64,000 nucleotides of DNA from Apium graveolens (taxonomy: Eukaryota; Streptophyta; Magnoliopsida; Apiales; Apiaceae): contig NC_133650.1 of the NCBI RefSeq assembly GCF_009905375.1, forward strand, positions 142,221,135 through 142,285,134, given 5' to 3'. The notes beneath the pieces are model-generated. The model had not been told where the DNA came from. It made no database searches and was given only the letters and a program-made list of their open reading frames with translations. The position numbers and the translations under genes were made by a program. This document shows, piece by piece, positions 10,126-53,500 of this stretch. The stretch's first letter is position 1. Each line of letters opens with the position of its first letter.

Positions 10126-10294
10126 TGTCACAGCCCCAAAATAAACTAATAGAATATAACTAACAAATATAAAGTTATTACAAACAGCTGTTAAAAACAA
10201 AATCCAATATCTTAAAGGTTCATTGTTTGAACAGTCCAACACTACAACTATTACAACTCTTATATAAAGCTACCGGTCCTCACACAAACACCAA

Positions 10295-10372
10295 CTATAC
10301 TACCTGAGCTCTCACATAAGCCTCAGCATCTCCACCGATAGACTTACGAGCAGTCTGCTTGGATCTAACCAT
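10295..10372 (-). CDS. Short LTR reading frame with a histone H3 tail-like start
   Basis: A 25-residue frame begins MVRSKQTARKSIGGD and ends YVRAQVV before TAG. After Met, 10 of the first 14 residues equal the H3 N-terminus (ARTKQTARKSTGGK), including the K4, R8, K9 and S10 positions. It is preceded by a pyrimidine tract ending TTTCAG and ends at CAG|GTAG, so it looks like an exon. Three family A LTRs have the same unit in the same place. It is short enough that a non-coding conserved leader is possible, and it is not proven to be translated. H3-like function is inference. Confidence 0.45.
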   Translation of the reverse strand: MVRSKQTARKSIGGDAEAYVRAQVV

Positions 10373-13300
10373 ACTTGCTAGCTGAAATAACATGAATGAA
10401 AAGCAAGAAGTGAGCCAAATGCTCAGCAAGGTACATCATAAGACAAAAATTAACATCATGACCATCTATAAATTGGAAATTGAGGTGTATGGCATCATTA
10501 TTCAAGTCAAAGTGTTTGTAACCAAAGCATTGCTCAAAATCATTTTATGATGCTACGGATCACAGCCGGTGATTAGCCGCGAAGTAATCCTGAACCTTGT
10601 TGGGTTCTAAACAATTTGATTGGGACCCCTAGGCATCTTTTAAGCCTAATATAATAAGTGTGAAAGGGACTTGCGTCTTAGTCCAATCCACCAATCTCAA
10701 GAAAACATTCTTTTATTTAAAGAGCAATTATATTTTATAAAACTGATGCCATGGAGAATTTCACAAGGATTCTAAACAATTGAGCTTAAATTATCAGTCA
10801 AGGGTTGGAGTTATGGAACTCTTATCAGAATGAATCAACTTTTCACTAACAGGGTCTTCAAAGATTGACATCAATGGTTCAACAACCAAGGAAGAAAGTA
10901 TTAAAAAAGAATCATAACATTATTCAACAAGATAGAGATCTCAAGTTTTGAGGGTCATATATAACATATATCTACTGACAAAGTTTGGGTATGATTATAA
11001 GGATATATATAAAGAGTTGAATTATTGGTATCTTGGAGGTGTGAGAGTGTAATGGAAAAGTGGTTAATCAAGAGAGATTACACAATTAAGGCAATTGAAG
11101 TATTTTAGTTTATAAGGGTTTCTCGAAATGACCAAGACATTCAGTTTAAGTCAAAGGTAGATACTAGGTCAAATTGAAATAAAATAGTGATAAGGGTGTA
11201 ATTTTTATAAGAGCATAAATAGACTTAAAGCAAGTCCAATAATCGTAAGCATGGCATATCATTTACAATATCTCAATCTAAAATCAGAGTATTTGTAACG
11301 ATATATCATTGTGACAAAAATATTAATGATCATTATACGAGCATGCTACCATAATTCAAAAGAGTGGTTGGGAACACTTGCAATACATCTTGAAATTTTA
11401 GAATAATTCGCAACATATCTCGAGAGGGTTTAAGGACACTTGCCTTAATAAGGCTGGACTAACTCTCGTCTTGATCTTGGAAGCAACCGGGAGCACTACT
11501 CGACTTTGACGGCAAGCTTACTATCTTCTCCTGAGCCTGCACAATAACAATTAGACCTCATCAAGATATATTCTCACAAATTTCCATCCTAGTTATAAAT
11601 ATTCAAATCATAGTGGCACTTAGGCCTATTTACACGTTCGACCCTTAGTATTCACATAATAGCATCATATCCCAAGTAATCATTTATAAGAACATAACAC
11701 ATTTAGTCACATAATATATTATTTAAAATATAGTGCACTATTAAGTATTGAATGATCTGACTCCACCAACACAAATGACTCAAAATGTTAACTAGCCTAT
11801 TGCAATTCAACTATCCCTCCAAATTCGAAGTGTCCCATCAAACCAACCTCATTTCACTTGACCACAACCCTGTCCTAACCTCCTACTGACCTCTAACTAC
11901 CATATGAACTCAATGGTCAACTCAGGACTTACCTTTAAGGACTCAAAAACTAACTGTAAAGTCAAAGTGTTCCTAAGTGCAACATCTAAGTGATATCGAA
12001 TGGTTTCTAGTGTCATTGATCCCTATTTCACTCAACGTTTGCTATTCAAATTACTAAAATGGAATCTCAGAACCTAAATATAACTTGTGCACTTGGAATG
12101 ACACCAAGGCCTATCCTAGGCCTCCTGGGCCTACTCCCAAAGTTGACTCTCCCCTGTTCCAGCGACACTCAAACTGTCCTGTTTTGCTCTCACTTTACAC
12201 CCTTGGTTTTAACTCTAAACTCCAAAAATATTGCTTGAAAACCTCCTACATACTCCCTAGTATCAGTGATAACCAAGGCCGAATGAGGGCCTACCCATGA
12301 CATCACTTTCAAAGCTCAAACTTGCTCCTAACTCAAATTGTCCCTGTTCGGGCAGAATTTAAGTTTCGACTTGTGTACCTAACTAAATGGATTTATTTCT
12401 CTCATTTAAATCTTCTGGGATCGACTATAGGTCAAGTCCTAACCCCTGGTAGCTTGGGCCTTCTAGTTCCTAACAAATGCTCATTCATTTCTCACTCACA
12501 AGTCAAACCTCAAATCTAGAAAATGCTGAAATCTATTCTAACTTCTTCCACCTTAACTCCCACTTATAAACCATGAACTCAATATTTAACCAAGCATAAT
12601 TACTATCCTAATACTCTCATCTAATCCACTAACACGTGGTGGAAATCATTCATACCCTAATGCACCATGACCAAATTATATAAACAAAATAGCAAGACTA
12701 ACACTTAAATTACATTTTCGAGTACTTATGCACAAAACAAATATATATCACAACATGCAAATGGAATACCAACTAAGTATACTCATTAAACCACTTTACA
12801 TACTATAAATAGTCATAATAAAGCACTTATCATCACATGCAAATCAATTCAAGTCTCAAAATCTCACAAATCATGGCATGCCACTATGATCTTGACTTAT
12901 ACTCAAAGATATCTTACTAGCACTTATATTGTATTCCATAAAACTAACATGCAACCTTATCATGATCATATTTGTAGAAATATATAACATGCAAAGTTTT
13001 AAACTAAGGTAATATCTCCAAAAATCATGATTTAAGCACATAGCAACCAAGAACAAATAACGATACAAACAACCACTCCATTCGGCTCCTTTTGAGTCAA
13101 TGCTGAATGGAAGAGGGAGGAATGACACTTGCATGTGAGTGAAACTCCCACGTCTTTCCCTTCACAACCCTTTTGCTAATTTAACTCTTAGTTTGGACCT
13201 TAAGTTCATAAGAACTAAGGTCTTCCACTTGAGTTTTGTACTTACATCTTACATGCAACACCAAACCATTCAACAAACATATAATTCTCTACACAAATAT

Positions 13301-13379
13301 GTATGGAAGGGGTTTAACAAGATTGAGAGAGTGGAATTACACTAGAATTCTTGGTATTTGGAAATGAAAAAGAGGAGGA

Positions 13380-13395
13380 GTGTGTGTGTGTGTGT
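13380..13395. repeat. (GT)n microsatellite in LTR B
   Basis: About eight GT units beside a purine-rich (GAGAGGGAGAGAG) block. Confidence 0.85.
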
Positions 13396-13983
13396 TTCGG
13401 CCGAGAGAGGGAGAGAGAGGGGAGGGAAGGAGAGTGAGGGTGGAGTGTGCTAGTGGAAAAATGATCACATGTTTGATCATTTTATTTGTTATGTAATGGG
13501 TAGTGGAGTGGATAATTACTTTCTTATCCTTCTCTCTTAACTAGCACAACATGCATGCAAGGCTATAGTGGTCATTTAATTTGGTAGAAAAGAGTTAGTG
13601 GAGTAGATAATGACATGAATGTCCTCACTTTGTATTCAGGGTAAAAATGCATGCAAGGGCAATTAGGTAATCACATAATTATTAATATAATTAAATACAA
13701 AGAATACATTTTATAAATAAAACCATAAATCTATAAATTACAAGAGTGACACCATAAAATAGTTTAGAATTTTAGAAATTTAATAAGATCGATTTCGAAA
13801 TTTATTAATAAAAATAATTTAAAAAATGATTTTTTTGGATAATAAAATACATTTTATAACCTACATGAATAGCAAATAATGCATTTCTTATTTTCTGAAA
13901 TTCCAAATAATATCACACAATTATTTAGCATAATTCTAATCACACAAACACATATTCAAAAAAAATTTATTTAACTCACTTAA

Positions 13984-14092: not shown

Positions 14093-16054
14093 CTAAGGAA
14101 ATAGGTGAGGATACCGGACTCGCATTTCTGACTCTAATTTCCATGTCGATTCTTCGACTTTGGGATTTCCCCAAAGCACTTTCACCAACTTTACTGACTT
14201 ATTTCTAAGACTCTTCTCTTTCCATTCGAGTATTTTGACAGGTTGCTCCACATAAGACAAATCTTTTCTGAATTTCTAACGGCTCATACTCTATCACATG
14301 ATTGACATCCGGATTATATTTTTTAAGCAAAGACACGTGGAATACATTATGAACATGTTGATATTGAGGGGGTAGAGCTAACTCATAGGCTACTTTTCCT
14401 ACTTGATTTGAAATTTCAAAAGGACCAATATAACGTGGTTCCGACTTTCCCTTTTCCGAAACCGGGTCAAACCCTTCCATGGTGACACTTTCAGCAACAC
14501 GGCTTCACCTACTTGGAAACTCACATCCATTCTGGCAGGATCTGCATACTTCCTTTGTCTTTCTTGGGCATCAATTAATCTCTTCCTAATTTTGGCGACT
14601 GTTTCCTTCATTCGCTGAAGTAATTCAGGACCAAAAACTTTTCCTTCTCCTACCTCACCCCAATTTGTCGGAGATCTGCATTTTCTTCCGTATAAAGCTT
14701 CATATGGAGGCATTCCGATGCTGGAGTAGTAACTATTGTTGTATGAGAATTCTATAAGTGGTAAGTGATCATCCCAGCTTCCTACGAAATCAATTGCATA
14801 TTTGCGCAACATGTCTTCAATTGTTTGTATAGTTCGCTCACTTTGACTGTCCGTTTGTGGATGATATGCGGTGCTCATATTTAGCTTTGTGCCCAAACTC
14901 TCCTGAAACTGTCTCCAAAATCTTGAATTGGATCATGGATCTTAATCTAAAACTATCGATACTGGTATGTCATATCGTATACAATTTCATGCACGTACGT
15001 ATGAACCAACCTATCCAATGAAGTCTTCTCGTTGATTGGTAAGAAATGTGCCGATTTGTAAGGCGATCAACTATAACCCATATGGCGTCGTGTCCGGATT
15101 ATGTTCGAGGCAATCCTACTATGAAATCCATGGAGATATTCTCCCATTTCCACTCAGGAATATTCAATGGCTGAATTAATCCGCTCGGTCTTTGATGTTC
15201 CTCTGTTACTCTTTGACAAGTATAACACTTGGAGACCCATTCTGTAATTTCTCTTTTCATATTTGGCCACCAAAATTTCTTTTTCAAATCCTGGTACATC
15301 TTTGTGCTCCCCAGATGAATCAAAAATTTCGAGTTGTGTGCTTCCTGTAGTATCTCGAACTTCAATTCACTCACTTGAGGGATCCATATCCTTGATGAGA
15401 ATCTTAATATTCCTTGCTCGTCCTTTTTCGTACGTATTTCTTCTCCCGTCAGTTGATTATTCTCTCGACTCGTCACTTCTTCTTGACATTTCTTTATATT
15501 CTGCAATAGTTCCGGTTGAAAAGTCATGGCATAACAAATCTCTTTCAATGTCCTGCAGAAACAAAGTTCTAGCTCAAATCTTTCAATCTCTTCAGATAAT
15601 TCCCTTGGCATGGTTATCATATTCAACCTTTCCTTCCTACTCAAAGAGTCGGCTACTACATTCGCCTTTCCTGGATGGTAATATATGGAATAGACGTAAC
15701 CCTTCTTTAGCTCCAACAATCTCCATTGTCTCATGTTGAGTTCCTTCTGGGTGAATATATACTTCAAGCTTTTATGATCCGTGTAGATTTTACATTTCTC
15801 TCCGTACAGGTAATGTCTCCATATCTTGAGTGCGAACACTATGGCCGCCAATTCCAGATCATTGGTTGGATATTTCAATTCATGAGGTTTAAGCTCTCGT
15901 GAAGCATATGCAATCACCTTATTGTGTTGCATTAGCACACAGTCTAATCCTTCATGTGAAGCGTCGGTATAAATGACAAAATCTCCTTGGTCATCGGGTA
16001 GTACCAATACTGACGCGGTAACCAATTTATGCTTTAACTCTTCAAAACTTCTTT
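14093..16054 (-). pseudogene. Gypsy B pol: RNase H, integrase and chromodomain, frameshifted
   Basis: The order on the minus strand is as follows. RNase H runs at 15640-16054 ([34 protein letters not shown]). The integrase zinc region is at about 15220-15330 (H-x-H, CYTCQ). The core spans 14700-15130 ([11 protein letters not shown], then AYHPQTDSQSERTIQ with the catalytic Glu). The GPF/Y module lies at 14300-14420 (PRYIGPFEI). The C-terminal chromodomain is at 14093-14255, with YVEQPVKILEWKEK, a VLWGNP block and PHLFP before the stop. A stop follows GLPRT near 15099, and frames change near 14470 and 14260. The zinc finger and chromodomain place it in the Tekay-type chromoviruses. Confidence 0.85.
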
Positions 16055-17086
16055 TGTAATATCCGGGATATCGTGTGTAATTATTTTTATCAATAAATAT
16101 TTTTTATGTGATTATTATATGATTTTTGGTGAATTATCTGATGATTGGTGTGGATATATGGATGCTTATAATTGATAAAGTATAAGTATGTTCATTTTAT
16201 TATGACCAGAATAAAATATAGATACTTACGATATTTTCTTGGTAATTTTTGGACTGTTAAATGATTTTATATTAATTTATGAATTTATTAATTATTTTCA
16301 GAATAATTACAAAATTATTTTATAAAGCCGGAAATCATCCGACTTCAACCGTTTTTACGTTTTTACAACCCGAAACTCTTCCGAAAACTCCTTCCTAACC
16401 TAATCTGGTAATTCCGGACATTTTTTGTGTTTTGACTTTTTCAATCCGGATTACGGTTTGACTCGTACGTGTCCCGGCATACAATTTTCGATTCAATAAT
16501 CATCTCGGTGAATCAACAAAACCCGTATTCTCAAAAGACGAGATAATATTACATTATTTTCACACAAGGTGTTTTATAAAAATCCCGATTTGGATAATTA
16601 TCCAATACAGGTATTAAATCTGATCGTTTTTGCAGTTACTTAACGGCTAAGTAACTAATTTAACGATCCAAAATGAACCAATATTCCAAAAATATATATA
16701 GCCCTTTTATCATTTCATTTTATTCGTATAATCAAAATCAGTCAGTAAAACCCCTAAAATACAGAGAAAATATCGAATTCATGTCGCGTTCTTGAGAATC
16801 AAACGTACGAACGAAGGCGTTATCGAACTCCGATTCGGGCGTGCAATATATCAAATCGAAGCTCTCGAAAAATCCTTTCATAATCAATCATCCATTTTTA
16901 TGTAGAAATCAATGTATTTTTCTTATTAAATTGTTTTATTCGAATTTATTAAAGATTAAATTATAAAAATTTGTCTTGATGTTGTTGATATAATTTGATG
17001 ATTCCATCGTGTAGGTAATATTTTTCTGGTCAATTTGGTATATAATATGTCAAAAATAGAGTTCAATAACGTTAGAGAAAGACGAT

Positions 17087-18930: not shown

Positions 18931-20700
18931 CTTGTTCATGTTCTGTCATCGCTGCCGTGTTTATTCCGTGGCTTGGTCTCGGTTCCGGCTCCATTCTTCC
19001 TGGTATATACATATATATACATACAACAACGTATATATATTATGTGTGTACAATTGTGTTGTGGGTGTGCGTCTGTGTTGTGTGTATGTGTTCGTGTGTG
19101 TGGTGTATGGTGGCTTGGCTGTGTTCTTGGCCGTGTTTTGGCCGTGTTCTGTGCTCCCTGTTTCGCCTGTTTTGGGTTCTGTTGGGCCTGTTCATTCGGG
19201 CCTTGTTTTCTTTGTTTGGGCCTGGCAGTTGGGCTGTGTGCTTGGACTCGACTATCGGGCCGAATTTCTGCAGTGGTTTGATTATTAAAATTTTAATTTC
19301 TTTTTCCTTTTTATGCAGGAAAATAAATGAATAAGATTCGTGAAATAAAAACTTTTATTGCAGAAGAATTGTTTTAATCGGCGTAATTTATTTGGAAACC
19401 AGTAATATAACGGGCACCAATAATTATACCGCTATTGACGATGAACTTCGGTGAGTCAACGGTGGACGATGATAACTTTGTTCTGAGTCCTAAATTTTAT
19501 AAATAAATAAAATGATTTACGTAAAATATTCTCGGACTTAAATAATTAATTATGAATTGTGTTGTGGTATAAGTTGTATGAAATGTTGGAGTCGATATTG
19601 TGGATTGTTGTGATTGTTGACGTCGATTGTAATCGACGGGTAGGCTTATAAAGAAAGGAGTTGCTAGCAAAATTTTCTAAAAATGTATCTGTAAACGTAT
19701 GTATTTATTCTATACGTGTTACCCCTATTTGTGTTCGGATTACGTGATTACGTGATTATATGTATAATAACTATACGAGTTGGGTTATCGAATTGGGTTA
19801 TTAGGATTTGAGGATATCAATCATATTGGTATAACTAATTAGGGTACTCTGTATTTGTAGATCCCAGTCAAGTCTCCCCATGACCGAAGTCAGCGTGAAA
19901 GCTACTTAGGGTTTTGTAAAGCGTTGCAAGGCAATACCCCTGACCATTCTTTTATGGTTCAGTACGTATGAATAGCTAAATGTTTTATTCTCGTAATGGC
20001 ACATAATAGTTTTAAGTTACGTATCCCCCGTAGTTATAAATCACTATTTTTCAAATTATTTTGGGGAAAAGTAACTTCGAAAGGTACCCTATCTCGAATG
20101 AAATGATTTGCGAACTGGATTTATATGTGTGCTGGTAAATGAATGGTTTTGGAAATGAGATAGGTACAAGTGTTTTAAAAACTGGATATAAACGATCAGA
20201 TATGGGATACATTGGGGCCCAAAGTAGGCCTATTGAGGTGGCGTAAGAGGCTAATTCGGTTGCGCGCACCCTATAACCGATTAGTCTAGCAGGTCAGAGA
20301 CCTAGATAGTCTCTAAGTTCCGGAACAGGTAAATGGGATGGTAGTTAGAGGCCGTCTGATGTTGATAGCCTAGTTCAGCTGTCTTTACATATCCGTTACG
20401 TATCTGATTTGGATTTGTGATTCCCGTAAGGGTATGAGTAGTTGATACATCAGTTTTATAAATATGAATAGCATGCTAAAATTGGACTCTGGTACTTACA
20501 CAACACACTACTATGTTTTTTGATAAAGCATGCTAGTCAGTGATATCCAATATATCATATTTTCATTATATAATGTTGATGACATGATTACAGCTCTGTT
20601 CCTATTATTGTTTACATTACTGTTTTTATTCGGTTATTCATATATTGGTACTGCTTTGCGACTATGCTCACCCTTCCAAACTGTTACGTATATATCACAG

Positions 20701-20784
20701 ATGCCTAGAACACCAGTCAGACATACTCGTGTTCCCGCCCCTTCAGGACCCGGCTCCTCTGAGGTAGTTTGTATCAGACCATGA
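20701..20784 (+). CDS. Short basic reading frame near the end of LTR C
   Basis: A 27-residue frame begins MPRTPVRHTRVPAPSG. It follows directly after TATATCACAG, an acceptor-like sequence, and crosses a GAG|GTAG donor-like site at 20761-20767. Position and flanks match the H3-like units of families A and B, but the peptide itself is only vaguely similar (M-x-R, basic). With the obvious acceptor at 21233 the phase would not join to the leader frame. It may be a decayed or alternative version of the same unit. Confidence 0.3.
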   Translation: MPRTPVRHTRVPAPSGPGSSEVVCIRP

Positions 20785-20992
20785 GGTCTGATGAGTTGCT
20801 GAATAAAGTTAGAGTATGTTAGATGTTGAAGAAATGGTTTGTAATAATGTAAACCTGAATCATACTTGAACCTGGATCGGATCTTGGTTTGGGGTCAAGA
20901 TAGTATATTTTAATAATAATCTTGTTATTTATATTTTGGTAATTGTGTTTGGTGACATCAACTCCTGACCCCGGGGTTGAGGTCGTCACAAT

Positions 20993-21004
20993 TGGTATCA
21001 GAGC
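20993..21004 (+). other. Primer-binding site of gypsy C (initiator Met tRNA)
   Basis: TGGTATCAGAGC, complementary to the 3' end of tRNA-iMet, starts two bases after the LTR end. Confidence 0.85.
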
Positions 21005-21463
21005 TACAGGTTGAAGTCCCTGATCCAGGCTAGGGATTATGTCGAATAGGTGTTAAAGTGAGTTTTAAGGTGTGAGTCAGCAGCTCATATAGAGGAGCAA
21101 ACTTTTAGAGTCAGTCGAGGGTTCCGACGGCATTACCCTAGCATCTATTAAATATTTTGATAGAATTTCCTTGACCTGGTTGTGTCTTCCTTGTATATTT
21201 ATTATGTTGACATTGGCCTATTGCGATTTCGAGTTCTCCATCTCGGGAGAATCCCTCTGACCCGGATGGCTCAGATTCTGAGAGGACCCTGGATGTTGTT
21301 GCTGAGGAGACCCCTATGCCTCCTCCACCAGTTCCTTCCTTTATGCCGAGAGACATCCCTGGACCTGGTACTCGTCCCCGTTGGGTACGTAGGTCTGTGT
21401 CTGCCGTTAGGGATTTCCCTCCCGGTTGTGGTCCCAGTTCTTCCTCGACGAGACCTCCAGTAC
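21005..21463 (+). other. Gypsy C leader with start of a Pro/Ser-rich pre-gag frame, cut by the gap
   Basis: A frame open from about 21226 reads SPSRENPSDPDGSDSERT, then a Pro-rich stretch and VRDFPPGCGPSSSS, and enters the N gap. No gag core motif is visible. It lies where family A elements have a coiled-coil-like pre-gag frame. Confidence 0.45.
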
Positions 21464-32863: not shown

Positions 32864-35800
32864 CTAAGCAGATTTAGAGAAAGAACCTGAAACCATTCCA
32901 AGTTCATTTACCAATCTTATAAAAGCAGCTTCACATAGTGGTTTTATGAAGATATCTGCTAGCTGTTGATCTGTTGGAACAAAATGCAATTCCACTGTAC
33001 CTTCATCCACATGTTCCCTTATGAAATGGTACCTAATGCTGATGTGCTTTGTCATTGAGTGTTGAACTGGATTACCTGTCATAGCAATAACACTTTGATT
33101 ATCACAGTAAATAGGGATTTTAGAAAATTCTAACCCATAATCCAGTAACTGATTCTTCATCCAAAGAATCTGTGCACAACAGCTTCCTGCAGCAATATAT
33201 TCTGCTTCTGCAGTTGATGTGGAAATTGACTTTTATTTCTTGCTAAACCAAGAAACCAATCTGCCTCCAAGAAATTGGCAGCTTCCACTGGTGCTTTTCC
33301 AGTCTATTTTGCATCCTGCAAAATCTACATCTCTATAGCTAGTAATATCTACTGATTTACCAGTATCCTTATATAACTTGGTTGTAGTGGCCATGGGAGT
33401 AGATGCAGTTGAACAATCTTGCATTCCAAATTTCTTCAGTAAATTTCTGGTATACTTGGATTGACAGATAAAAGTGCCTTCTTCAGTTTGCTTGACTTGA
33501 AGGCCCAGAAAATAGCTGAGTTCTCCCATCATACTCATTTGATATCTTAATTGCATTAACTTTGCAAACTTTTCACACAGTTTGGAATTAGTAGAACCAA
33601 ATATGATATCATCAACATATATATGTACCAAAAGTAAGTCCTTTCCATGGTTGAGGTAGAATAAAGTCTTGTCAATTGTGCCTCTGTGAAATCCACTTTC
33701 CAGAAGGAATTGAGCTAAAGTCTCATACCATGCTCTTGGAGCTTGCTTAAGGCCATAAAGTGATTTGTCAAGCCTGTAGACATGATTGGGAAATTTAGGA
33801 TCTACAAAGCCTGGAGGTTGTTGAACATATACCTCTTCTTCCAATTCTCCATTGAGAAAAGCACTTTTCACATCCATTTGAAAGACTTTAAACTTCTTGT
33901 GAGCAGCATAAGCCAAAAAGATCCTTATGGCTTCTAATCTAGCAACTGGTGCAAATATTTCATCTTAATCAATACCCTCCTGTTGAGAGTAGCCTTTAGC
34001 AACCAGTCTTGCTTTATTCCTTGTAATTATGCCATCACTGTCAGTTTTGTTTCTGAAGACCCATTTTGTACCAACAACGGATCTGTTCTTTGGTCATGGC
34101 ACTAGGGTCCAGACTTCATTTCTTTCAAATTCATTTAACTCTTCCTGCATTTCTTGCATCCAATCAGCATCTTGAAGAGCTTCTTCCATTTTCTTTGGTT
34201 CATTCTGAGATAGAAAAGAATGATAGAAACATTCATTTGAAGTTTCAGTTCTAGTTCTGACACCTGCTTCAGGATCTCCAATGATTAGATCAGGTGTGTG
34301 TGCTTTAATCCACTTACTTGCAGATGGAAGTTGATCTCTAGAACTGGATCCTCCCCCATGATCCATGCTGTCTCCATCAGCATTTTCTGATGCTCCCCCT
34401 GTAGTTATGCTCTCTGAGACTTCAGAATTTGAGTTTGATTTTTCAGGAGTTGAAGAATCAGAGCTTCCAAAATTATCAGAATTTGGCTCATCAGAACTAG
34501 ATGAATCAGAACTTGAAGAGCCAGTGACAGGTTCTGATGTTTCTCGAGAGTCTTGGGATGTGGTAGGATCTTCAGCTTGCTCCCCCTGGACAGGTGCATT
34601 TTCCTTTGGAGTTGTTACCATAGTTTTAATGACATCGAAACTTAATCCATCAGAACTTACATGATCAGGATTTAAGTCATCAGAATATCCAGAATCAGAA
34701 TTTAAATCTTCATTCTTAAATCTCAGCTGATCATGATCATTGAAATCTTCAAGTCCAGTAATCTTCTTATCATCAAAAGAGACATTGATAGATTTCATGA
34801 CAACTCTTGTTCTTAAATTGTAGACTCTGAAGGCTTTTGTGGAAAGTGGATATCCAACAAAAATTCCTTCATCAGCTTTTAGATCAAATTTTGACAGCTG
34901 TTCAGGATGAGTCTTAAGAACAAAACACTTACAACCAAATACATGGAAGTATTTCAGATTTGGCTTCTTTTTCTTTACCATCTCATATGGTGTTTTTTCA
35001 TGCTTGTTTATTAGTGTAGCATTTTGTGTAAAACAAGCAGTCTGCACAGTTTCAGCCCAAAAATAGGTTGGTAGCTTTGCTTCATCAAGCATTGTTCATG
35101 CAGTTTCAATGAAAGTCCTTTTCTTTCTTTCTACAACTCCATTTTGTTGTGGAGTTCCAGGTGCAGGAAATTCCTGTTTGATTCCATGATCTTTGCAGAA
35201 CTCTTCCATGATTGAATTCTTGAACTCAGTGCCATTATCACTCCTTATGATTTTAACAGAATCTTTGATCAATTTATCCAACTGTTTGACATGATCAGTT
35301 AGAGTAGATATTGTTTCAGTCTTCTTGTGCAGGAAATACACCCATGTGTATCTTGTGAACTCATCCACTATAACCATAGCATATTTCTTCTTTGCAATAG
35401 ACATGACATTGACTGGACCAAATAGATCAACATGCAGTAGGTGATAAGGCTCAAAAATTGATGACTCGGTTTTGCTCTTGAAAGAAGATTTTCTTTGTTT
35501 TGCCTTCTGACATGAATCACAAAGCCCATCAGGAGCAAATACTGTTTTTGGCAGTCCTCTCACAAGATCTTTCTTTACAAGCTCATTCATATTGTTGAAA
35601 TTTAAATGAGAGAGTTTCTTGTGCCACTTCCAGCTTTCTTTAATTGATGCTCTACTCAACAGACAGATTGCAGAACCATCAGTACTTGTTGAAAGTTTGG
35701 CTTCATAATTGTTACCATGCCTGTATAATTACTTATAACTTCACAGTGTTCTTCAAAGAAATCCACATGATAACCTCTGTCACAGATTTGACTTATCCTC

Positions 35801-36033
35801 AACATATTGTATTTAAGTCCTGAGACTAGAGCTACTGTTTCAATGATGACATTCCCCAGATTGATCTTGCCATATCCCAGAGTTTTTCCAATGTTGCCAT
35901 CTCCATAAGAAACTCCTGGGCCAGCTTTCTCCACAAAGTCTGATAGCAGGGCTTTATTTCCAGTCATATGTCCTGAACATCCACTATCCATAACTAGATG
36001 TTCTTTCTGTTGCCCTGCAATCACAAAGACCAC
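32864..36033 (-). pseudogene. Sirevirus pol: protease, integrase, reverse transcriptase and RNase H
   Basis: Protease (35656-36033) shows the DSGCSGHMTG active-site block. Integrase (35096-35659) shows the zinc region (HKKLSHLNF, CDSCQKAK), then HVDLFGPV, IRSDNGTEF and NGVVERKKR, the Asp-Asp-Glu triad. Its C-terminus (from 35092) leads to a Ser/Asp-rich hinge (34380-34700). Reverse transcriptase (33232-34200) shows [10 protein letters not shown] and YVDDIIFGS. RNase H ends with CDNQSVIAM, HIxxRYHFIRE and QLADIFIKPL at 32864. Defects: a frameshift between protease and integrase, stops near 35094, 34091, 33965 and 33230, and a deletion near 33335 that joins SVDITSYR directly to DVDFAGCK. Confidence 0.9.
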
Positions 36034-36236
36034 TAATGGTTAGTTTTAAGGACCCAGACTTGCTTGGATCCTTTGGCCTTTTTAAGTTTGTTAATATTTA
36101 CAGCGGATTTAACATCAGAGTTTATGCTAACATTTTTCTTATCAGTATTAACAGTATCAGACTTTTCATCATACTATACACTAGAAGGAATTAAAGCAAC
36201 TTTCTTCAAAGAAGGTTTTATCTGATAATAATCATA

Positions 36237-38395
36237 TTACAAACTATGATATTCCTTACAGGTATAAATGTAATGCCATATACTACCACAATGAAAGTAA
36301 GGATTTTGTGGCTTAAACCTAACAGACTGACTCTTAACTTCTGACTTAGAAGGTAAGGAGTTTATATTCTTATTCTTCCTGCAAAACGAAGCCAGATGGT
36401 TAGAGTATCCACAGTTATAGCATTTCTTTCTAGGAGCATTAGGAACAGGCATATAATTGTTGCTTTTATTCACACCTTCCTTTTCATTCCTATTTTTCCT
36501 AGCTACCTTTACCTTCTTTACAATAGTAATCTCTTTCAGCTTATGTTTAAGCTGCTTCTTTGTCATTAAGCCTATGTTAACTTTAGTTAGTTTATCATGT
36601 TCTAATTTGTCAGAAGTTGACTCTGCTATCACTTCTGTCTCAATATCTTTCATCTTTTCAGAATCAGACTTTACAGTTTTGGCTACAAACTTAACAGGAT
36701 TTACCTTTGGCTTAGTAGTCTATTTAACAATAATTGGATTAACTTGTTCAGTTCCTTTTTCACTTTTCTCATCTCCATAACCTAAGCCCTCTTTCCAGTT
36801 TCCACTACTTAGTATATCCTGAGTTGCTCTTCCAGAGTTAGTCAAAGTCCTGATAATCTCTCTCTCTCTCTCTCCTTTTCTAACTTAGTTTTTAGAGATT
36901 TATTCATTTTTAGCACTTCATCTCTAACATAAAAGGCATCATCTCTTTCTTTCTGAGTTTGATGGAACATGACTAACTCTTTTCCTAAATAATCATTCCT
37001 CTTTTCAAAAGCAAGATTTTCAGAAGTTAATCTCTCACATGTTAAATTTTGATCTCTGTAACTAATAAACATGGTTTTAAGATATAATATCAACTCAGTA
37101 ATATCATCAGTATGAAAGGCATAAGTTGTTTGAGGTACCTTTAACTCAGCAGCATCAAAACTGCTATCAGCGTTTGCCATCAAGGCATAGTTCTCCTCAT
37201 CTTCAGAATCTGAAGTGTCTGTCCAGCTTTTCTTCTTTGTGACAAGAGCCTTGCCTTTATCACTCTTTCCTTTCTTGTAGTCAGGAGATATGTGGCCTTT
37301 CTCACCACAGTTGTAGGATTTGACATTTGAGTAATCTCCTCTGTCAGACTTTCCTCCTTTGCCTTCAGATTTTATGAAGCCCTTCTTATCAGAACTTCTA
37401 CCTTTCCTGGAAAACTTTTTTCCCCTTCTGAATTTCCTGTAGGCTATCTTTGTGATACCCTTCACCATAAGAGCACACAATTTCATCATCTCTTCATCAG
37501 CATCTACTTCAGGTAAATTTTCAATTTCTGAGTCATCATCATCATCAGAACTTGATGAATCTGAATCAGACTTTATGATGAGAGCCTTTCATTTGCCTTT
37601 CTTTGAGGCAGCCACTTTAGGGGATTCCTCCACATCTTTAAGAGCAATTGTCCTTGACTTTCTTCCATGCCTCTTGCTTCTATGATCCATCTCAAGTTCA
37701 TGAGTCTTGAGCATACCATAAATTTCATCAAGAGTAGTTTTATCAAGAGCATAGTTGTCTCTTATAGTAGTTGACTTCAAATCCCAACTTTCAGGAAGAG
37801 CTAATAGGAATTAAAGATCTGAATCTTCAAGATCATATTCCTTGTCCACCAGTGACAGATCATTCAAAAGTTTGACAAATCTGTCATATAAACTAGTTAA
37901 TAACTCATCATCTTTTTAGTCAAAGTGCTCATACTCTTGAGTGAGTATAGTCCTCCTGTTCTTCTTGATTGCATTAGTTCCCTGACACCTTATTTCCAAA
38001 GCATCCCATATCTCCTTTGCAGTCTTGCATTGAATTACCCTGTTTGACATGACATAGTCAATGGCACTGTGCAGCAAATGTCTTACCTTTGCATCCTTGG
38101 CAATAGATGAGATATCTTTAGCTGTGTATTCACTTTTCTCCTTTGGTATGGTCTTTGCTAGCTGATCTGCAACCACAACAGAGAGCTTGGTTGGCTTATG
38201 TGGTCCTTCATAAATTCTGTCAAGGTATTCTAGATCTGTAGCTTCCAGAAACATAACCATCTTCACTTTCCATATGGGATACTCAGAAGGTCTCAGTATG
38301 GGAACCCTGATAGTCTCATATCGACTGTGGGTTTGAATCTTTGGAGTTTCTTCAGATTTGGCGGCCTTGGTTGGATTTTCTGCTTCTTCAGACAT
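36237..38395 (-). pseudogene. Sirevirus gag
   Basis: The frame starts at ATG 38395 (MSEEAENPTKAAKSEE). The UBN2/DUF4219-type gag core includes RVPILRPSEYPIWKVKM and TAKEIWDALEIRCQGT (to 37916). Stops follow, then an acidic/basic region. A first zinc knuckle near 37310 has lost two cysteines (SYNCGEKGHISPDYKK). A coiled-coil-like stretch lies at 36842-37110, where the frame shifts. A second knuckle (CYNCGYSNHLASFC) is intact near 36400, and a third (YFHCGSIWHYIYTC, 36270) lacks its first cysteine. A long gag with several knuckles fits Sireviruses. A second copy of its N-terminal part begins at 63453. Confidence 0.85.
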
Positions 38396-42164: not shown

Positions 42165-42390
42165 GAAATTATGGAGGAAAGCCTAAGAAGCAGATGACTG
42201 CGAGGCTTGAGACTTTGATTTAGTACGTTAACACTAAGCTTGATGAGATGCCACCGCACCGAGACCGTACCATCCAGTATACTATCCAGATGATTGCAGA
42301 CGAGTTCCAGTGTATTGTGAAGACGCTTTTCACCATGAGATATATCATCATGGGGTTGAGAATGGCTAGACATGAGTGTGTCACACTTGT
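42165..42390 (+). pseudogene. Internal fragment of gypsy A element Q (pre-gag frame, second half)
   Basis: The segment starts with GAAAT directly after L1 and reads NYGGKPKKQMTARLETL and further helix-like residues, collinear with 50062-50245 of element P. It completes the frame that breaks off at 45744 (see the GAAAT finding). Similarity ends near 42335; the last ~55 bases before L2 are unrecognised. Confidence 0.6.
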
Positions 42391-45420: not shown

Positions 45421-45744
45421 GGTTTGGTATCAGAGCTACGGTTTAGAGTCCCTGGACAGCCCAAATAGGTTATAGGATATATACATAGGTTATAGAATAT
45501 TAGGCGAGAGTGTGAGTATAGGTTATGTGAATCCATCGTTAATAATTCTCTTATATATATATATATATATATATATCTATGCATTGTTTGGCAATAAACG
45601 GCGCATTCCTCATCATCCTCTGAACCGTCTGACACAATTGCTTTCTCCGTGTATGCTGAGTTGAGGCGTGAGTTCGACAGGCTTGAGGGCAAGTACGATC
45701 GACTGTTAGAGCGATTGAAGAACATGTATCCGGACACCCGAAAT
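45421..45744 (+). other. Gypsy A element Q leader with primer site and pre-gag frame
   Basis: The iMet primer site TGGTATCAGAGC lies at 45425-45436. From about 45600 a frame reads AHSSSS, then DTIAFSVYAELRREFDRL and KYDRLLERLKNMYPDTRN, and is interrupted at 45744 by the start of L3, immediately after GAAAT. The family P acceptor GTCAG is GGCAA here. An AT microsatellite lies at 45552-45577. Confidence 0.7.
45552..45577. repeat. (TA)n microsatellite in the Q leader
   Basis: About twelve TA units; absent from the P leader, where the matching place is short. Confidence 0.9.
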
Positions 45745-49400: not shown

Positions 49401-49540
49401 TATCTCTCGATATCATTGGTTATGTCTTTCCATTGTCATTCTTAAAGGTATATCTCGATTTATGTTTTGTGTCATACTGTTAGCACTTGTTGAGCATTTG
49501 GCTCACTCCTTGCTTTACCCTGATATTACAACTAGCAGCT

Positions 49541-49612
49541 ATGGTTAGATTCAAGCAGACTGCCCGTAATACCTGTGATGCTGATGCTTATGTTCGAGCC
49601 CAGGTAGAATAA
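49541..49612 (+). CDS. H3 tail-like mini-exon in L3
   Basis: MVRFKQTARNTCDADAYVRA, then QVE and TAA. The K9-equivalent has become Asn through AAG to AAT, and the acceptor AG of TTACAG reads TTACAA, with other AG pairs 4 and 7 bases further on. The CAG|GTAG donor-like site is at 49601-49607. Spliced at this donor to the acceptor at 49918 the frame continues in phase into the pre-gag frame. Confidence 0.4.
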   Translation: MVRFKQTARNTCDADAYVRAQVE

Positions 49613-49786
49613 GTAATAATAGATTGTGTGAGGACTCGGTATTTATATTCAGATGTAATAGTTGGTAGTGTCGGGCTGTTCCAAACCCTAAACTGTAAGA
49701 TCTTGGAGTTGGTTGTGTATTCTTCTTTTAAAATGTTGTAATAGTTATATTTAATTTGTTGTTTAAGTTGGGGGCGTGACAGGTTT

Positions 49787-49798
49787 TGGTATCAGAGC
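49787..49798 (+). other. Primer-binding site of element P (initiator Met tRNA)
   Basis: TGGTATCAGAGC five bases after the LTR end. Confidence 0.85.
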
Positions 49799-49918
49799 TA
49801 CGGTTTAGAGTCCCTGGACAGCCCAAATAGGTTATAGGATATGTGTGTAGGTTATAGGTAATATGCGAGAGAGTGGGTTAAGTAAATTATTATTAATACT
49901 CCTCTTATTGGTTGTCAG

Positions 49919-50275
49919 CAAAGGGCGCATTCCTCGTCATCCTCTGGGTCGGACGACACTATTGCTTTCTCCGTGTATGCTGAGTTGAGGCGCGAGTTCG
50001 ACATGCTTCAGGGCAAGTACGACCGACTGATAGACCGACTGAAGAACGTGTATCCGGACAGCTGAAACTACGAAGGGAAGCCCAAGGAGTAGATGACTGC
50101 GAGACTTGAGACCTTGGTTTAGTACGTCAACACTAAGCTTGAGGAGATGCCAGCGCACTGGGACCGTACCAGCCAGTATGTCATTCAGATGGTGGTGGTT
50201 GAGCTCCAGAGCATTGTGAAGACGCTTCGAGAGGAAAAGACTACCAAGCCCCGTTCAGATGGAGTGGAGCCTTAG
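49919..50275 (+). pseudogene. Pre-gag reading frame of element P (coiled-coil-like, no ATG of its own)
   Basis: After the acceptor-like TTGGTTGTCAG the frame runs 118 codons to TAG 50273: QRAHSSSSGSDDTIAFSVY, then a heptad-like AELRREFDMLQGKYDRLIDR, then helix-forming segments ending KPRSDGVEP. Three stops interrupt it (50063, 50090 and near 50120). Element Q lacks the first two of these stops. The frame opens without a usual start codon, which fits an exon spliced from the LTR. The antisense frames at 49937-50158 are shadows. Function is unknown; position and coiled-coil character suggest a structural or adaptor protein. Confidence 0.5.
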
Positions 50276-50591: not shown

Positions 50592-53500
50592 ATGCCTCCC
50601 AAAAAGAAGAACCCAACAACCACATCCACCACAGACCCAAACATTCTTCGATTACTGGAAACCTTGCAACAACAGACCAATGCAATAGCTCAACAACAAC
50701 TAACCCTTCAACAACGAATTGAAAACCAAGATAACCGTGAGCCACACCAACCACCTGAACCACCAGTACCACCTACACAAATTTTCACTTTCAAGGCTTT
50801 TCAGAATGTGAATCCACCTGCATTTCATGATACCACTGATCCAGTGATAGCTAACACATGGATCAAGGAGATGGAAATGGCTTTTGAGTTGGTACAGTTA
50901 GGAGACGATCAGAAGACGCTGTATGCTACATACTTCTTGAAGGGAGAAGTCATCTATTGGTGGAAATCAGTAAAAGCTATGGAAGTCACTCAACAGGTTT
51001 CTTGGGAGAGATTTAAGAAGTTATTTCTGGACAAGTATTATCCTAAGTACATGCAGAATCAGATGGAGCTAAAATTTCTTGAGTTGAAGCAAGGGAACAT
51101 GACTGTATTGGAGTATGAGAAGAAGTTCACTGAGTTGTCAAGGTTTGTGACAAAGTATACCAGCAATGAGGAGGAAAAAGCAAAGAAATTTCAGCAAGGA
51201 TTGGAGCCTTGGATCAGAGATAGGGTGGCTATGTTTGAGCTTGAAACTTATGCGGGAGTAGTACAGAATGCTGCTCTGATTGAGAATAATGGGATGCAGT
51301 CAAGGAAAGAGAGGGATAACAAGAAAAGGAAGGTTCCATTTTATGGAGAAAAGTCTGAAGCAGGAAGTTCACAAGATCAGAGTGTAAAGAGGATTGGTTT
51401 CCAGAAGGGTGGAAATTTTCAAAAGAAAGGAAATTTGGGTAAAAGGCAAGAATCGAAAGGGAACAATCAGGCAAGCCAAGGGCAAGTTGGAGAAAACAGG
51501 TTCTAGAGGCCAGAATGCAAGCACTGCGGAAGAAGGCACCCCGGAGTGTGTAATAAGCTGAGCATGACATGCTATAGGTGCAATCAGAAGGGACATTTGG
51601 CGAATGAGTGCAAGATGCTGAAGCCAGGAGTTACGTGCTACAAGTGTGGGAAGACTGGACACATAGCTAGGGAGTGCAAGGCAACCAGACCAGTCAAAGC
51701 TATGATGAATGTGGCAAGTACCAGTGCAAGCGTGCCAGCCGAGGTATTGGCATTACCTCCACCACCCGCACCAACCCCGCAAGCAACAGCAAGGACATTT
51801 GATTTAAAGATGAAGGATGCTGTACAGAATTCAGAGGTGATAGCAGGTACACTTTTACTCAATAATGTCAAACCTAAAGTATTGATTGATTCGGGAGCAA
51901 CAAGATCTTTCATATCAGAATCTTTTGTTGATAAGCTTCAATGTGAGAAAATGATTATGAGTGAGGTAGTAAATGTGGTAATTGCGAACCAAGAGAAGAT
52001 TCCTGTGAATCAATTTTGTCCAAAGTATGAGATTGATATTTCGGGGTATAAGTTTTCAGCCGACTTGATACTCTTCAAGTTGGGAGAGTTTGATATAATT
52101 TTAGGAATGGATTGGTTAGGAGAGAATAGCGCTCAGATTAATTGTAAGACCAATAAAGGGTATTTAAAGACGAAGAGTGGAGAGAAGGTAGTATTTAAGG
52201 GGCAGAGGCAAGAACAACTATTTCTTACAATTGTTCAGGCTAAGAAGCTACTTAGAAAAGGTTATGAGTCGTTCCTAGCTTATGTAGTGGATTCGGAAAA
52301 AGGCATCCCCAGCATGGAAGATATCCCTGTATTTAATGAGTTCCTGGATATGTTTCCCGATGAACTACCAGGCTTACCACCAGATCGACAAATCGAGTTC
52401 GAGATCAACCTTGCTCCAGGCACAGAACCAGTTTCCAAGGCCCCGTATAGGATGGCACCAGCAGAAATGAAAGAGTTGGCGAGCCAGCTACAAGAATTAT
52501 TGGATAAAAGAGTGATACGACCAAGTATATCGCCATGGGGAGCACCTGTTCTGTTTGTAAAAAAGAAAGATGGGAGTATGCGTCTATGCATAGATTACCG
52601 GGAGTTGAATAAGGTGACGATCAAGAACCGCTACCCGCTACCAAGGATAGATGACCTTTTTGATCAGTTGAAGGGAGCAAAATGCTTTTCGAAGATTGAT
52701 TTGAGATCGGGATACCATCAATTAAAGATCAAAGAAGAAGATGTTTCCAAGACCGCATTCAGGACCAGATATGGGCATTATGAATTCCTAGTAATGCCGT
52801 TTGGATTGACCAACGCTCCGGCCGCATTTATGGATCTAATGAATCGGGTATTTAAGAAGTATTTGGACAAATTTGTCGTAGTATTCATTGATGACATCCT
52901 TATTTATTCTAAGTCGGAAGAAGAACATAAGCAGCACCTCTGGATAGCATTGGAGATACTCCGATAAGAGAAGTTGTATGCCAAGTTTACCAAATGTGAG
53001 TTTTGGTTAAAGGAAGTTCAATTTTTGGGGCATGTCATTGGAAATGAGGGAGTTAAAGTGGATCCGGCAAAGATTGAGGCAGTTATGAGTTGGGAGAGGC
53101 CAAAGACTCCTACGGAAGTGCGAAGTTTTCTAGGATTGGCCGGATACTATAGAAGATTTGTCAAGGATTTTTCAAAGATCGCCATGCCATTGACCAAGTT
53201 AACCAGAAAGAATCAAAAGTTTGAATGGAGTGCAGAATGTGAGGATAGCTTTCAAGAGTTGAAGTAGAAGTTGGTAACAGCTCCGGTGTTGGTACTTTCA
53301 GATGATCAAGGGAACTTTGTAATATTCAGCGACGCTTCGCATAAGGGTTTGGGTTGTGTGTTGATGCAACACAGTAAAGTGATCGCATATGCGTCAAGAC
53401 AATTAAAACCGCATGAGTTAAAATACCCGACGCATGACTTGGAACTAGCCGCCATAGTGTTCGTACTTAAGATTTGGAGACATTACCTCTATGGAGAGAA

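Follow-up and report, generated by a model that had tools for sequence, protein, structure and literature searches.

An H3-tail-like first exon in an apparently spliced 5′ additional gene of a Tekay-like retrotransposon of celery

Introduction

Additional open reading frames (aORFs) are reportedly the subject of a study by Steinbauerova et al. (2011). Such genes upstream of gag (5′aORFs), with no function assigned, are reported for the Tekay lineage in rice, maize, sorghum and sunflower by two papers in which the word "histone" does not occur (PMC11728184, PMC3485330). The gene analysed here resembles the 5′aORFs (ORF0) of the Tekay/Del lineage as they are presented there for RIRE3, RIRE8, Retrosat2, their maize and sorghum relatives and sunflower Tekay 13-2: it is a sense gene between the 5′ LTR and gag, its LTRs are about 3 kb or longer, and its product belongs to no Pfam family (PMC11728184, PMC3485330). 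Helices and long disordered regions, as in the product analysed here, are likewise mentioned for the sunflower and some grass proteins (PMC11728184, PMC3485330), and two of our LTRs (L2 and L4) terminate in GGGCGTGACA, the terminus given for RIRE8 and Retrosat2 (PMC3485330). The celery product, at about 140–155 amino acids, is shorter than the 402 amino acids stated for the sunflower aORF (PMC11728184). Compared by description only, it further differs from the described Tekay 5′aORFs in having its first exon within the LTR, its primer-binding site within an inferred intron, and an N-terminus like the tail of histone H3.

Short imitations of the H3 tail are familiar from influenza NS1 and from G9a, which match a few H3 residues. 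Like these, the celery exon pairs a short H3-like stretch containing a methylatable lysine with an exposed end or flexible region; unlike them, it reproduces up to 11 H3 residues in a row, places them at a true N-terminus and belongs to a plant retrotransposon. A second parallel lies in Ogre, EVADE and BARE1, where, according to one review, splicing gives rise to a messenger distinct from the genomic RNA (PMC12786077). There splicing serves Gag or Pol expression, whereas here it would serve to express an additional gene that starts with an exon inside the LTR. The same review mentions an RNA demethylase gene in an orchid element and concludes that direct manipulation of the host epigenetic machinery by some elements is possible (PMC12786077). 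A retrotransposon-encoded H3-tail mimic was not found in the open literature searched, from which most subscription journals are missing; Tekay 5′aORFs are already known, and none bearing an H3 tail came up in these searches.

Results

The analysed stretch comprises 64,000 nucleotides of celery DNA, hereafter the window. On its minus strand, positions 10372 to 10298 read MVRSKQTARKSIGGDAEAYVRAQVV, which is identical to H3 (ARTKQTARKSTGGK) at 10 of 14 positions after Met, as a preliminary description of this DNA had reported. Comparison with simulated sequence bears this match out: its BLOSUM62 score including Met is 54, and none of 60 windows simulated at matching dinucleotide frequencies exceeded 36. 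Leaving Met out gives 49, with ceilings of 38 in the simulated windows and of 39 when 200 shuffled H3 tails were compared with the real window. Across 13,304 Met codons in 35 sequences, three H3-like LTR exon copies reach 11, 8 and 7 of 15 identities, and the rest reach at most 6.

The unit, with its KQTARK or KQTARN core, had been noted in three LTRs; the window holds four copies in total (L1 to L4), each no more than ~250 bases from the 3′ end of a long LTR. Copy L1 (10304..10372, minus strand), which shares 12 of 16 residues with H3, runs from ATG to CAG inside the 3′ LTR of what we call element B, encodes MVRSKQTARKSIGGDAEAYVRAQ and is followed by a donor GT, as read from its translation and splice-site context. 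The other three lie on the plus strand: L2 (41924..41986; MVRFKQTARKTCDADAYVRAQ) has an AG acceptor 5′ and a GT donor 3′; L3 (45181..45243; IVRFKQTARKTCDADSYVRAQ) retains the donor and begins with ATT in place of ATG, its start having been lost; and L4 (49541..49603; MVRFKQTARNTCDADAYVRAQ, with KQTARN) retains the donor and has lost the AG acceptor 5′ of the exon. In all four the frame ends CAG/GTAG (the slash marks the exon end) and the unit lies about 240–250 nt from the 3′ terminus of the LTR; exon 1 closes with ..RAQ before GT. Three of the four have an AG acceptor 10–11 nt 5′ of the ATG, L4 being the exception. The four copies also share an inverted repeat, TGAGC-ATTTG-GCTCA, some 35–40 nt 5′ of the exon (for example 10411–10425, minus, and 49491–49505, plus), which might fold into an RNA hairpin close to where an upstream intron ends.

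The preliminary description treated the unit as a short LTR frame. The peptide is indeed there; it is not a complete gene, being exon 1 of an apparently spliced one whose second exon, 3′ of the primer-binding site, had been missed and is revealed by an in-phase frame and by gene models. Between the primer-binding site and gag lies a second frame (AHSSSSSGSDDTIAFSVYAELRREF...); in element C it follows TTGTCAG and is in phase with the LTR frame. The primer-binding site itself, TGGTATCAGAGC, which we take to fit tRNA-iMet, is readable behind L4 (49787..49798, plus) and L3 (45425..45436, plus). Behind L4 the inferred intron of 315 nt (49604..49918, plus) contains the LTR end and the primer-binding site, and exon 2 (49919..50275, plus) follows in phase with exon 1; it encodes a helical domain, sits 5′ of gag, and is interrupted by stops in this copy and open in the protein models P0001 and P0009. 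Behind L3 a truncated exon 2 (45602..45735, plus) remains, its AG acceptor not preserved, and behind L2 there is a remnant (42170..42328, plus) from which the LTR end, primer-binding site and exon 2 start have been deleted.

We joined the two L4 frames in silico, with X at stops, and searched the result against 5.77 billion proteins, which gave 8 of 37 candidates at E ≤ 1. The best match, P0001 (Apium graveolens AgCh_012955), aligns over its full length at 94% identity with the junction exactly as predicted, and P0005, a celery gene model at 71% identity, has the predicted junction too, although there the gene is joined to a preceding protease fragment and its exon 2 is incomplete; the remaining six represent all or part of exon 2 read from unspliced DNA, or start inside exon 2. 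The junction thus rests on sequence together with P0001 and P0005, which are gene models and not transcripts. On these grounds we conclude that the H3-like peptide is exon 1 of a sense 5′aORF of a Ty3/gypsy element, with splicing inferred.

The elements carrying the exon were classified by their domains, LTRs and primer-binding site. The LTR of element B, as traced, spans 10126..13857 (minus), its 3′ end at 10126 having been read by eye and its 5′ end not being fixed, such that the extent is inferred; LTR–LTR pairwise matches cover 10196–10709, 11482–12303 and 13552–13857, from which LTRs of ~3.7 kb are inferred for the window. Element B also holds a broken pol (14096..16103, minus) with Pfam RT_RNaseH, Integrase_H2C2 (zinc finger) and SH3_Tf2-1 (the SH3-like integrase C-terminus) and a possible chromodomain. 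Element C supplies a gag ORF (50592..51506, plus; Pfam Retrotrans_gag and Ty3_capsid) with an AG just 5′ of its ATG, followed by zinc knuckles, protease and the start of reverse transcriptase (51507..52964, plus; zf-CCHC, RVP_2 and RVT_1). The gag–protease–reverse transcriptase–RNase H–integrase set of Ty3/gypsy elements is therefore found with its first parts in element C and RNase H and integrase in element B. With the ~3.7 kb LTRs of Tekay type, an initiator-Met-type primer-binding site behind two LTRs, and a sense frame between the 5′ LTR and gag conserved in many copies as in Tekay 5′aORFs, the H3-exon element is, by this assignment, a Tekay-like Ty3/gypsy element.

The chromodomain that had been ascribed to element B fares less well: the 60-amino-acid piece exists (14096–14275, minus), yet it has no Pfam match at E ≤ 10, and against the PDB its best hit (E 1.4e-4) is an unrelated repetitive chain, with 2m2l at E 0.59 and the Clr4 chain 1g6z at E 1.3. 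A link between the H3-like tail and a chromodomain of the same element is accordingly weak.

Two other units in the window may be recorded. At 20700–21463 (plus) another gypsy LTR end with a primer-binding site at 20993 has the same two-frame layout, namely an AG, then MPRTPVRHTRVPAPSGPGSSE running to GAG/GTAG in the LTR, and a frame ENPSDPDGSDSERTLDVV... after the primer-binding site that continues until an N gap at 21463; this looks like a 5′ additional gene of another family with an LTR exon that is not H3-like. At 33233–38395 (minus), frames resembling the gag, integrase and reverse transcriptase pieces of a Ty1/copia element were recognised by eye.

A search of the 3.33 Gb celery assembly with the L1-type LTR end returned 4226 first-look candidates, and the 40 that were scored were all 89–100% identical. 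Thirty L1-type loci, including the window's own copy, were cut out and read: K4 is kept in 27 of 30, Q5 in 26, T6 in 29, A7 in 26, R8 in 27, K9 in 28 and T11 in 23, and donor GT and acceptor AG are each present in 29. Copies L057 and L061 read MVRFKQTARKSTGGDAEAYVRAQ, and an exon 2 of the type seen in the celery protein P0013 lies within 1.5 kb downstream in 12 of the 30 loci.

Relatives occur in hogweed (Heracleum sosnowskyi). A profile search gave 23 matches at E ≤ 10, of which 21 were at E ≤ 1e-5, and none of the source-named matches among the 23 comes from the plants with described grass or sunflower aORFs. In hogweed, P0009 (which stands for 13 clustered sequences), P0010 and P0017 begin with MVRTKQTARKSSNG, with the N-terminus MVRTKQTARKSSNGV joined to the same exon 2 at the same point; hogweed P0019 has exon 2 but no H3-like tail, and P0021, a distant match (E 9e-6), differs at the N-terminus. 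Two celery models, P0022 (E 0.1) and P0023 (E 1.3), which bear the names AgCh_017193 and AgCh_029361, have exon 1 flanked or preceded by unrelated coding sequence, which could mean uptake into host transcripts or faulty annotation.

The hogweed protein was in turn searched against celery, where 6935 first-look candidates were found and all 150 scored matched at 52–67% identity, mostly beginning at query residue 17–20 and spanning exon 2. This permitted a blind test, in which the stretch upstream was read for the first 12 loci, chosen on a hogweed-like exon 2 only with exon 1 unseen. An H3-like exon 1 lies upstream in all 12, identical to H3 at 8 to 13 of residues 1–16 and containing a stop in three. 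Locus L113 (MVRTKQTARKSTGRQ) is identical to H3 residues 2–12, 11 in a row, and locus L107 reads MVRTKQTARKSTTGPA. Every open copy seen has valine where H3 has alanine 1, and K14 has been lost; S10 is kept in two of three celery families and in hogweed.

In sequence searches of the PDB, the best 60 of 125 matches to the L1 peptide are all H3-family histones (best E 0.012, marginal), as are the best 60 of 86 to P0009 (best E 0.06, marginal), and among the matches listed the alignments to H3 begin at query residue 1, 2 or 3. No histone family was found by Pfam in P0009 or P0001, which would have indicated a histone fold after the tail. In the predicted structure of P0009, residues 1–32 are almost wholly below pLDDT 50 and helices follow; the tail is presumably flexible, and the sequences together with this low-confidence segment of the model suggest that H3-like sequence with the K4 and K9 context is present at an accessible site.

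Selection was assessed within and between families. Within one family (30 copies) no constraint was detected, with 3 synonymous and 16 nonsynonymous shared variants and 11 and 24 singletons, respectively, which we attribute to dead copies that lose bases after insertion and decay freely. Between families, exon 1 has a median dN of 0.11 and dS of 0.64 relative to L2 (23 open copies of 29 gap-free), and 0.16 and 0.79 relative to L3 (the same 23 copies). Exon 1 of the third family relative to L061 gives dN 0.15–0.34 and dS 0.76–3.4 in 10 of 11 copies, the eleventh yielding no estimate, and exon 2 relative to element C gives dN 0.26–0.29 and dS 1.1–1.3 (five copies). Within the window only, the signal is weaker: third positions account for 9 of 13 exon 1 changes (P 0.009) if codons beside an indel are omitted and for 11 of 18 (P 0.014) if they are retained, and the bias in the two exon 2 pieces has P 0.26 and 0.08. 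At the DNA level, between-family identity in exon 1 (51/63) is little above that of the upstream LTR (210/274), and exon 2 (220/320) is similar to the intron parts (113/175 and 95/135). Because the exons are tiny, single dN/dS ratios are rough, and it is their agreement across families that counts; this agreement indicates that the H3-like N-terminus is constrained between families. The preliminary description had staked the peptide on conservation of the KQTARK frame in other copies and on purifying selection: the frame proved to be conserved across the celery families and hogweed, and selection is apparent between families (dN < dS) and absent within one.

Capture from H3, mimicry and chance had all been put forward at the outset. 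Chance is excluded by the conservation across celery families and hogweed and by the constraint between families, and on protein grounds exon 1 was likely derived from a host H3 gene. The source was possibly an intron-bearing gene of the H3.3 type, for which the DNA gives only a hint. Celery has intronless and intron-split H3 genes; among 13 distinct 5′ regions whose coding start matches H3 exactly, an AG acceptor touches the ATG in six, all of them split genes that we take to be of the H3.3 type, and not in the other seven. The LTR exon resembles these genes in that residues 2–12 are identical in its best copy and an intron acceptor lies just 5′ of the ATG in both; it differs from H3 in the valine at position 1 and in that no histone fold is recognised (Pfam, P0009). 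Codon agreement with the H3.3-type genes is 6.0/12 for L061 against 4.2 expected (P 0.06), 6.2/12 for L107 (P 0.019), 5.5/11 for L103 (P 0.054) and 3.7/11 for L113 (P 0.47), a weak match from four copies that are not mutually independent, and agreement with other H3 genes gives P 0.19 to 0.65. Separately, many partial H3 matches at 69–84% identity were seen at about 180.04–180.48 Mb of celery contig C7 (G000:C7) and on contigs C684, C685, C1422, C2988 and C4164; they cover query residues 45–81 and 78–134, with no H3 match for an N-terminal exon, and look like a tandem array of diverged H3-like genes.

Discussion

The best overall explanation, to which we assign a probability of roughly 60%, is that the 5′aORF encodes a constrained H3-tail product that engages host proteins binding the H3 tail. 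The unspliced RNA would serve as genome, and the spliced RNA, without the primer-binding site, as a dedicated messenger; since that site lies in the inferred intron, the spliced messenger could not prime reverse transcription. The start Met would probably be removed before Val, leaving VR(T/F/S)KQTARK..., near the free H3 N-terminus ARTKQTARKST, and the mature hogweed N-terminus would be VRTKQTARKSSNG.. The product would then consist of a helical domain, perhaps able to oligomerise, and a flexible H3-like tail in front of it, offering R2, K4, Q5, T6, A7, R8 and K9 to host H3-tail proteins, and most likely engaging readers or modifiers of the K4–K9 stretch. Replacement of A1 by valine and loss of K14 would weaken binding by proteins that need those residues, and the target is therefore probably among K4–K9 readers and not among proteins dependent on A1 or K14.

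What such engagement would achieve is less certain. Silencing of plant retrotransposons proceeds largely through H3K9 methylation coupled to DNA methylation, and we tentatively suggest, at somewhat less than even odds, that the tail acts as a decoy or bait for H3K9-linked silencing factors, by which the element either escapes silencing or draws chromatin factors to its own complexes. A fuller scenario, which we consider about as apt to be right as wrong, is that the lineage captured the 5′ end of a host H3 gene, perhaps of the H3.3 type, into its LTR as a spliced first exon, that an oligomeric helical scaffold displays the free H3 tail and thereby disarms or hijacks the H3K4/H3K9 machinery, and that the element reached its very high copy number in celery with this transposon-encoded histone-tail mimic.

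The main rival to a decoy or bait is tethering. On this view the tail, in methylated or unmethylated form, would attach to chromatin readers or to the chromodomain of the element's integrase and would direct assembly or integration towards particular chromatin. We regard this as unlikely, though it has some points in its favour: the pol of element B may end in a chromodomain, itself weakly indicated, and in the available part of the sunflower study the Tekay group with a 5′aORF inserts along chromosome arms and groups without it near centromeres, which led its authors to propose that the aORF protein may shape insertion preference (PMC11728184). The sunflower gene is, however, likened to the celery exon by description alone, and plant group II chromodomains are stated, in the passages available, to lack aromatic-cage residues and to have no known binding partner (PMC3350952, PMC12786077).

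Less probable still is that the N-terminus is simply a basic nuclear localisation or RNA-binding segment whose histone likeness only reflects its origin. It is basic and predicted to be flexible, and a nuclear location is predicted for Tekay 5′aORF proteins in other plants (PMC11728184). A generic tail of this sort would have no need of Q5, T6 and A7, which are nonetheless kept in 26, 29 and 26 of the 30 celery copies (K4 and R8 in 27 each) and also in the three hogweed proteins. An H3 fragment captured once and riding along in the protein without function seems very improbable; it would agree with the lack of constraint within one family, and plant retrotransposons are known to capture pieces of host genes, as one source relates (PMC7264820), but in both exons dN between families lies well below dS, and celery and hogweed alike have retained the tail. 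Finally, that a conserved LTR DNA element should read like H3 by accident, as the shortness of the unit and the between-family similarity of the upstream LTR might suggest, has a negligible chance of being correct, given that simulated windows never came close, that L113 has 11 consecutive H3 residues, that between-family changes favour third codon positions, and that the blind test, with an H3-like exon 1 at 12 of 12 loci chosen on exon 2, in effect refutes it.

A constrained H3-tail product engaging host proteins would offer a concrete and testable function for the unexplained Tekay 5′aORFs. The LTR would double as promoter region and coding exon, and a primer-binding site within an intron might let the element switch its RNA between the roles of genome and messenger. 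Because selection has kept an H3 tail on an element protein, it becomes directly testable whether transposons use histone mimicry to fight silencing or to exploit it; if this reading is true, the silencing machinery of the cell meets an imitation histone made by an abundant celery element that also has relatives in hogweed.
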